A DNA stretch of 64,000 nt from Rosistilla carotiformis. Its GTDB lineage: Bacteria > Planctomycetota > Planctomycetia > Pirellulales > Pirellulaceae. The position numbers were made by a program, and so were the translations under genes. The notes under the pieces were generated by a model. It had not been told where the DNA came from and made no database searches. It saw nothing but the letters and a program-made list of their open reading frames with translations. The DNA lies in the NCBI RefSeq assembly GCF_007753095.1, contig NZ_CP036348.1, positions 6,177,411 to 6,241,410 of the forward strand. The letters are read 5' to 3'. This document shows, piece by piece, positions 50,538 to 51,153 of this stretch. The first letter of the stretch is position 1; each line of letters starts with the position of its first letter.

Positions 50538-50741
50538 AACGGACCTTGCACGAAAACGAGAGGGCGTCCGGGGGACTCTTTGGATTAAACTGAAAACCGT
50601 GAGCTAGCAGCACTGGCCGCGTTTTTTCCAAAGGCTTTCGGAGATGCGCTCAATCATAGCCCATCGCGCGATGCGACTAAAGCAAGTAGACGCATTGCGG
50701 CTCGCGCATCGCAAAGCACTAGAGCTGGACTCGTTTAGGTA

Positions 50742-50886
50742 CAATACCGTTCAACGAAGCGTAGTGGACGAGGCTACGAGTCCTTTTGCACGCATCAGAC
50801 CAAATCGCTGGGACTCGTAACCTCGTCCACTACATCACGCCGCTAATTCTTGCGACGGTCCGAGGCTCCTTCGTTGAACGGTATTG
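50742..50886. mobile_element. MITE-like element with 18-bp terminal inverted repeats
   Basis: A 145-bp non-coding element. Its ends CAATACCGTTCAACGAAG (50742-50759) and CTTCGTTGAACGGTATTG (50869-50886) are perfect inverted repeats. Inside, GTAGTGGACGAGGCTACGAG... (50761-50783) pairs with 50811-50833 at 22 of 23 positions. It is flanked by the 10-base direct repeat CGTTTAGGTA (50732-50741 and 50887-50896), as expected for target duplication. It has no transposase and would need one in trans. It inserted just upstream of an IS3-type remnant. I do not recognise it as a named element. Confidence 0.75.
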
Positions 50887-50955
50887 CGTTTAGGTAGTGA
50901 CCCTGATCCCGGACATGCTGAGGACTTAGAATTGCCGTTCAAGGAGATTGTCGGA

Positions 50956-51153
50956 ATGAGCAAGAAGCCACTCCAGGGCACCAACAAAGCACGACGTCCG
51001 TTCCCCGATCAATTCAAGAAAGCTGCAGTTCAGATGCTGTTCGATGGCCATACCGCGAGTTCAATCGTCGACCGTCTCGGCCTGGGGCAAAAGGTGGGGG
51101 ACTTTTTTTCGAGGGAGTCACGCTCCGATGGCAGCTTGCGCGGACGTCCATGA
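50956..51153 (+). pseudogene. IS3-family transposase OrfA, truncated
   Basis: From ATG 50956, with AAGGAG at 50941-50946, the frame begins MSKKPLQGTNKARRPFPDQF, followed by KKAAVQMLFDGHTASSIVDRLGLG. That is the helix-turn-helix start of an IS3/IS911-type OrfA, which normally runs to 90-110 residues. After residue 46 similarity stops (KVGDFFSRESRSDGSLRGRP is not OrfA-like) and no OrfB with a DDE domain follows, so this is a 5' fragment. The next 230 bases hold no recognisable gene and are probably scrambled element DNA. Confidence 0.7.

Follow-up and report, generated by a model that had tools for sequence, protein, structure and literature searches.

The window, by which we mean the whole stretch of DNA analyzed (64,000 nucleotides), belongs to a 7.44-Mb genome on a single contig (G000); two other genomes of the genus (G006 and G072) were available for comparison. 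At window positions 50732 to 50896 we found an element 145 bp long with perfect inverted ends, enclosed by 10-bp direct repeats. Its parts are listed here by window position and strand.

50732 to 50741, no strand: left target-site duplication, CGTTTAGGTA, from the sequence and the family statistics
50742 to 50759, plus strand: left terminal inverted repeat, CAATACCGTTCAACGAAG, an IS4-type MITE end, identical at 17 of 18 positions to both ends of the ISs at L230 and L231
50761 to 50783, plus strand: REP arm 1, GTAGTGGACGAGGCTACGAGTCC; the same arm flanks a RAYT-like gene at L093
50784 to 50810, plus strand: loop separating the REP arms, 27 nt; the 141-bp form has a loop shorter by 4 nt
50811 to 50833, minus strand: REP arm 2, inverted, with its GTAG foot outward and one mismatch against arm 1
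50834 to 50868, plus strand: right spacer of the MITE, 35 nt; against six full-length ISs and two IS ends of G107, only 9-nt matches at the level of chance
50869 to 50886, minus strand: right terminal inverted repeat
50887 to 50896, no strand: right target-site duplication, CGTTTAGGTA

The direct repeats are identical at 10 of 10 bases, the terminal inverted repeats pair at 18 of 18, and the inner inverted repeat pairs at 22 of 23. The original prediction, made from the letters of the window, had described just these features (an element of 145 bp, its perfect 18-bp inverted ends, direct repeats of 10 bp, and an inner repeat of 23 nt with one mismatch), and all of them were read again at the same positions. 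Folded as a single strand, the 165 nt including the direct repeats gave z scores of -8.37 (RNA) and -8.25 (DNA), with none of 200 shuffles equally stable; the structure is far beyond chance. A match to the Rfam family mir-379 (23.4 bits versus a cut-off of 56) was rejected as a weak, implausible, mere reflection of the hairpin. A search of plasmid records with the element gave no match. An ORF fragment adjoins the element at window positions 50897 to 51153 and has a homologous stretch at G006:C1:3057918-3058109; it resembles what we take to be the start of an IS3-type transposase.

A family of intergenic copies

A DNA search of G000 with the element returned 81 matches (E <= 0.001), and at the 40 loci that were fetched we counted 54 stretches (E < 1e-8), including one reverse match and split copies. 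The further copies that the original prediction proposed to look for are therefore present in large number. The 18-bp end, allowing up to 3 mismatches, occurred 80 times in G000 versus 3 times for a reversed control pattern, and the inner REP arm, at the same tolerance, 152 times versus none for the control. The elements lay mostly within an open frame of at least 250 codons at 0 of the 40 loci, compared with 67 of 80 control intervals from the same loci. The element is thus found between genes at about 40 places in this genome.

Full-length copies are carried by all three genomes of the genus. Across the wider family, 27 of 119 genomes, the three of the genus among them, had matches (E <= 0.001), the match numbers per genome being lower bounds. 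Outside the genus, among the matches listed, most covered query positions 10 to 125, centered on the REP doublet. The exception is G107, the contigs of the planctomycete metagenome assembly KLAP7, whose matches begin at the left end of the element (positions 1 to 92) and which has end-REPIN-end elements of its own.

In the three genomes, intact copies take mainly two forms, of 145 bp (20 of 75) and 141 bp (32 of 75), which differ by 4 nt in the loop. For the 64 of 75 copies that were aligned, identity to the consensus was 0.96 and 0.98 in the two arms, 0.95 in the ends, 0.94 in the spacer, and 0.91 in the loop. Compensatory changes were almost absent in these 64 copies, as only 1 arm cell and 3 terminal-inverted-repeat cells changed on both sides and yet stayed paired; structural selection on the hairpin is unsupported by this count, and for that reason we make no claim of it.

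Several loci in G000 show unusual arrangements. Tandem arrays of four MITE units lie at L047 and L061, where the units are spaced about 167 bp and 117 bp apart, respectively, and the REP doublet and loop are inverted relative to the ends at L068 (G000:C1:7417728-7417868). At L049 (G000:C1:7367822-7368128), two head-to-tail copies have one common 10-bp target unit between them, as if the second copy had taken the duplication of the first as its target.

The copy in the window is 98.6% identical to the copy at L033, and it had no counterpart among the fetched loci of G006 and G072. On the other hand, the comparison within the genus showed several MITE copies to be common to more than one species. 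The recent transposition originally proposed for the window copy therefore holds at the level of the species only.

The inner module resembles a REPIN

The REP arm, GTAGTGGACGAGGYTACGAGTCC, starts with a GTAG foot, and GTAG-tagged REPs are thought to be mobilized by RAYT (HUH tyrosine) transposases. REPINs are generally regarded as dependent on a single RAYT that resides in the genome and is inherited with it. The nested inverted repeat, which makes up the middle 73 bp of the element, is a REP doublet (REPIN, GTAG...CTAC). What had been predicted as a nested repeat is thus present, with its single mismatch, but it belongs to another mobile class than the MITE proper.

Among the 136 arms in the fetched loci of G000, 87 are at most 70 nt away from a MITE end or the right spacer and 49 are not, part of the latter sitting in damaged MITE copies. 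Standalone REP doublets or clusters without MITE ends were found at L088 to L091 and L093 to L097, and REP doublets without MITE ends occur in other genera as well. A single arm has a stem of 4 bp (-1.8 kcal/mol) and folds no better than shuffles, which counts against the explanation favored below.

At L093 (G000:C1:3722467-3727191), an ORF of 187 aa at positions 2057 to 2620 of the locus has three REP arms on each side. It is RAYT-like, with an HLH motif that appears by eye to be of the HUH type, and it matches the NCBIfam model REP_Tyr_transpos with an E value of 2.5e-10 (40 bits, under the curated cut-off of 80, and under the Pfam cut-off too). This ORF is likely to encode the putative REPIN transposase of G000. 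There are five matches to Y1-type transposases in this genome.

The MITE-borne arms also host other elements. A Tn5-like IS of the IS4 family, 1543 bp long with ends CTGTYGATTACCCACAAGTC, encodes a protein of 474 aa at L137 with the domains Tnp_DNA_bind and Dimer_Tnp_Tn5. It lies within 12 fetched MITE copies of G006 and G072 (L137 to L140, L143, L144, and L146 to L151), always in a REP arm, and duplicates 11 bp (GAGGYTACGAG); orthologous MITE copies without it exist (L048 versus L138 and L204 versus L139). An element of 255 to 256 bp with ends like those of the Tn5-like IS occupies the same REP site at L142 and L145 (G072) and at L070 (G000), and is probably, judging from its ends, a second MITE nested in the first.

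Target-site duplications and target preference

We compared the 10 flanking bases on each side of 75 copies with both ends, taken from the fetched loci of G000 (29), G006 (23), and G072 (23). Copies were counted only if both ends had at most 5 substitutions and a REP arm lay beside the left end, shortened copies being left out; for G000, this retained 29 of the 54 stretches. For G006 and G072, 29 loci each were fetched rather than all copies, some of them picked because they were split. Since some of the 75 copies are common to species and hence not fully independent, each genome was also permuted alone.

The two flanks agreed at 9 or 10 of 10 bases in 45 of the 75 copies and exactly in 24, whereas only 6.3% of mismatched left/right flank pairs reached 9 of 10. 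The observed agreement was not reached in any of 5,000 permutations of the right flanks, either overall or in each genome alone. The 10-bp repeats are target-site duplications, bearing out the earlier view that they flag transposition. The remaining 30 copies, without a 9-of-10 duplication, count against the explanation favored below; they may have lost theirs by decay or by recombination between copies.

This comparison also bears on an alternative that treats all 145 bp as a single long element of the REP/BIME type, mobilized by a RAYT through single-strand HUH transposition, with the terminal inverted repeats forming an outer stem and the 10-bp repeats coming from a repeated target. Such an origin would fit the GTAG...CTAC doublet at the core, the RAYT-like gene flanked by the same REP in G000, and the Y1-type transposases; moreover, the flanks often hold another palindromic repeat, so that some likeness between them is expected without duplication. 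However, the likeness of the flanks was 7.67 of 10 within a copy versus 5.34 across copies, and REP-type insertion is not known to produce such a likeness within a copy. The ends of the element, furthermore, match the ends of DDE-encoding ISs, and REP doublets exist without terminal inverted repeats. We regard movement by a RAYT alone as very unlikely.

The 45 duplications have a near-palindromic consensus, CG(T/G)TTAA(A/C)CG (CGKTTAAMCG). In the window copy, CGTTTAGGTA deviates from it in the right half, identically on both sides, and this 10-mer is no commoner than chance in the window (1 match with at most one mismatch versus 4.07 expected). A palindrome of the GTTTAACCGCG type was found within 40 nt of 27 of the 75 copies. 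Insertion of the MITE at the margin of another palindromic repeat is thus frequent, though it does not apply to most copies. The sequence CGTTTAACCGCG is a dispersed repeat, with 39, 216, and 263 exact sites in G000, G006, and G072 versus 3, 1, and 0 for the reversed control, respectively. Together with a GC hairpin, it forms a palindromic repeat that differs widely in copy number within the genus (39 versus 216 and 263), and some of its copies form arrays in which the orientation alternates.

The flanks of 10 loci were joined at a single target copy and compared with the other genomes, giving five continuous alignments. Four of these are reasonable empty sites: L217 of G006 in G072 (95% identity), L198 and L188 of G072 in G000 (79% and 78%), and L043 of G000 in G006 (75%). 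Their single target copy agreed with the duplication at 8, 9, 8, and 8 of 10 bases, respectively. The fifth, L037 of G000 in G072, aligned continuously at 88% with a poorly conserved junction. For the other five loci, including that of the window copy, no empty site was present among the loci returned, so the search for empty sites proposed with the original prediction succeeded for the family but not for the copy that had prompted it. The left flank of the window copy was found at one place in G072, and its right side elsewhere in G006 and G072; the window locus is rearranged and also carries the transposase-like fragment.

Full-length IS relatives encode IS4-type transposases

In G107, the end CAATACCGTTCAATTAGC was present at 16 places, and the 16 that were fetched sit no more than about 360 nt from a contig end, which is what one would expect if the assembly broke inside a repeated IS. 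The initial 92 residues encoded at this IS end matched the Pfam domain Nterm_IS4 (39 bits versus a cut-off of 25). Used as a probe, the 92 residues matched 10 of 241 genomes of the family and, with this probe only, 0 of the 3 genomes of the genus. Nor did G000 contain an IS-sized pair of MITE ends with at most 3 mismatches.

We found six full-length relatives in other genera of the family (L228 to L232 and L236), in which two ends (CAATACCG... in common) span 1469 to 1476 bp. The ends of the ISs at L230 and L231 are those matching the MITE at 17 of 18 positions on both sides, and those at L228 and L229 match at 16 of 18 positions at one end and 13 to 14 of 18 at the other. The flanks were identical at 10 of 10 bases in L229, L230, L232, and L236 and at 9 of 10 in L228. 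However, L231, among the closest to the MITE in its ends, had a duplication of only 5 of 10, as did a seventh, shorter locus (L235); both count against the explanation favored here. The targets at L228 to L230 (CGTTTAAC, CGTTAAACG) are like those of the MITE, and those at L232 and L236 are unlike them.

The six transposases have in common an invariant D134-D209-E315 triad and Y308-R311-E315-K322 signature (6 of 6; numbering of L229), with spacings that fit D(60-110)D(100-150)E and Y(2)R(3)E(6)K, which are given as IS4-family hallmarks (PMC2266710). All six scored above the Pfam cut-offs for Nterm_IS4 (PF13006) and DDE_Tnp_1, and the four that were scanned scored above the cut-off of the NCBIfam IS4 model NF033592. 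Set against the signature -AATR--------WTW, the MITE end fits with AATA and partly at WTW, where it has CGA and the G107 IS has TTA. Since full-length ISs have such ends, 10-bp duplications, and IS4-family transposases, we assign the element to the IS4-type MITEs. The expectation that the length of the duplication could identify the transposase proved useful, as 10 bp points to an IS4-type enzyme. The full-length IS with the same ends that was to be looked for was found with nearly the same ends in other genera, but, with the 92-residue probe, not in this genome or genus (0 of 3).

A quite different reading would make the element a cassette that a site-specific (tyrosine) recombinase had integrated at a CGNTTAANCG core, the 10-bp repeats being the recombination cores. 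The 10-bp site on either side is nearly palindromic and strongly favored, as such an enzyme might leave it, and tandem copies can have one 10-bp unit between them (L049, and C70 of G107). Yet the 10-bp sequence varies among loci while remaining the same on both sides, odd ones included (GGTATAACCA, CGATGAAACG), and 6 of 6 full-length relatives examined encode DDE/YREK transposases. We therefore consider a recombinase exceedingly improbable.

Candidates for a partner within G000 were rejected. Its DDE transposases gave 12 matches to PF01609, and 0 of these 12 loci had MITE ends (at most 4 mismatches). When five of the 12 proteins were scanned in NCBIfam, one, at L072, passed the IS4_1 model. 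The IS at L072 was rejected as the partner on account of its ends, CAATACTGTTCGGC, which are like those of the MITE at only 11 to 12 of 18 positions, its 9-bp duplication, and its protein, barely alignable to that of L229. This IS4_1-type IS (L071/L072) is 1573 bp long and lies, with the duplication TGTCAGGAC, within a GTGTCAGGAC...GTCCTGACAC palindrome. A derivation of the right spacer from a partner IS by internal deletion was likewise rejected, the only matches being of 9 nt.

The element might also be a fossil, amplified in the past by an autonomous IS since lost from the genus, with nothing moving it now. In line with this, the transposase probe matched 0 of the 3 genomes of the genus, and many copies are common to species. 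Against it stand the window copy, which is 98.6% identical to that at L033, has ends and a duplication that are both perfect, and is without a counterpart among the fetched loci of the relatives, as well as the distant IS4-family IS retained by G000 (ends CAATACTGTTCGGC), which might act in trans, though its ends match at only 11 to 12 of 18. We hold this variant, which is compatible with the explanation favored here, to be slightly more doubtful than probable.

A REPIN as the probable cargo of an IS4-type MITE

The 145-bp element is very probably a non-autonomous MITE of the IS4 family, belonging to the IS4-type subgroup, whose middle part is a REPIN carried as cargo, and one ancestral fusion of the two would have been amplified through the MITE ends. 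The non-autonomous, MITE-like nature first suggested for it is supported by the copies, the duplications, and the full-length ISs with nearly the same ends. Running from the end through a C into the REP arm, the left junction is identical in 73 of the 75 copies. The right junction conforms to a strict pattern in 53 of 75, and the other copies listed have the same spacer with base changes, one of them with an unclear right end. Each module also occurs by itself: full-length ISs have the ends but no REPIN, and the REPIN is found lacking the ends. The common junctions therefore argue for one fusion followed by amplification, and this amplification would have gone through the MITE ends, because it is these that produce duplications.

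As to the mechanism, a DDE transposase acting in trans would recognize the 18-bp ends and excise the element. It would then be inserted at a near-palindromic CG(T/G)TTAA(A/C)CG target, where repair of the staggered cut would duplicate 10 bp. These cut-and-paste steps are modeled on the IS4 family, and the copy number, duplications, target motif, and full-length ISs come from the genomes studied here. The fusion of REPIN and MITE, as the junctions suggest, would have happened once, in the ancestor of the genus, and its product would have spread through the MITE ends with the REPIN riding as cargo.

The elements of G107, 112 to 115 bp long, differ in their fusion junctions, with TTC on one side and about 10 nt on the other. 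Their flanks agreed at 10, 9, and 8 of 10 bases in 3 of 7 rows and at 0 to 6 in the others; these rows count the copy at L169 on both strands, and L169, which carries one inserted nucleotide in its end, agrees at 9 of 10 when read by eye. The simplest reading of these junctions would be a second, independent capture of a REPIN, and a single old fusion that later diverged is possible. A still broader proposal is a recurrent alliance, in which REPINs repeatedly become the cargo of IS4-type MITEs and are spread by a DDE transposase in trans as well as by the resident RAYT, the fusion outlasting the lost DDE partner of the genus. We put this forward as a rather unlikely, tentative generalization.

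Each part of the element is ordinary; the fusion of a REPIN with an IS4-type MITE is unusual. Among the matches listed in a literature search that took in few subscription journals, none described a REPIN within an IS4-type MITE. The REPIN would here owe its spread to another transposition system, unrelated to its own, and this would also explain its target duplications. The targeting also appears layered, since the MITE often lies beside one family of palindromic repeats and the Tn5-like IS lands in the REP arms borne by the MITE. With the copies, the full-length partner ISs, and the RAYT-like gene identified, the enzyme responsible for each movement can be put to a direct test.

Comparison with known systems

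As described in a survey of the IS4 family, members of the subgroup IS4 are 1400 to 1650 bp long and have -AATR ends and duplications of 10 to 13 bp, and some of them show a marked target preference (PMC2266710). The MITE is like them in its ends, which begin N-AATR, its 10-bp duplication, and its target preference, and its relatives, of 1469 to 1476 bp with DDE and YREK residues, agree with the same account (PMC2266710). The WTW given there for positions 14 to 16 is present in the G107 IS and partly in the MITE (PMC2266710). Unlike the members of that subgroup, the window element is geneless, and full-length ISs with such ends were found only in other genera.

Another study describes GTAG REPs in planctomycetes and credits one of these, R. 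baltica, with several families of GTAG REPs and numerous genes for tyrosine transposases (PMC3733652). Our element resembles REPIN/RAYT systems in its two inverted GTAG arms with a loop, its many intergenic copies, and a RAYT-like gene with the same arms (PMC3733652, PMC6006769). It departs from them in that 87 of 136 arms are part of an element whose insertion duplicates its target. The stem of a single arm, moreover, has 4 bp here versus the 6 to 9 bp given for most REP stems (PMC3733652).

An IS4-family element at a palindromic repeat has a precedent in ISRm22, which is reported to insert into REPs, to split the REP, and to have 6-bp repeats (PMC1525189). The MITE is similar in that it uses CGKTTAAMCG, with 27 of 75 copies beside the CGTTTAACCGCG hairpin repeat. 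It differs from ISRm22 in duplicating 10 bp, and the REP arms inside the MITE are split in this genus by the separate Tn5-like IS. The GTAG-15 family of Anabaena variabilis offers a closer parallel in form, with REP dimers lying within a repeated outer palindrome (PMC3733652). The account of that family links the outer palindrome to no transposon (PMC3733652), whereas here the outer part consists of transposon ends, with 10-bp duplications and full-length relatives.
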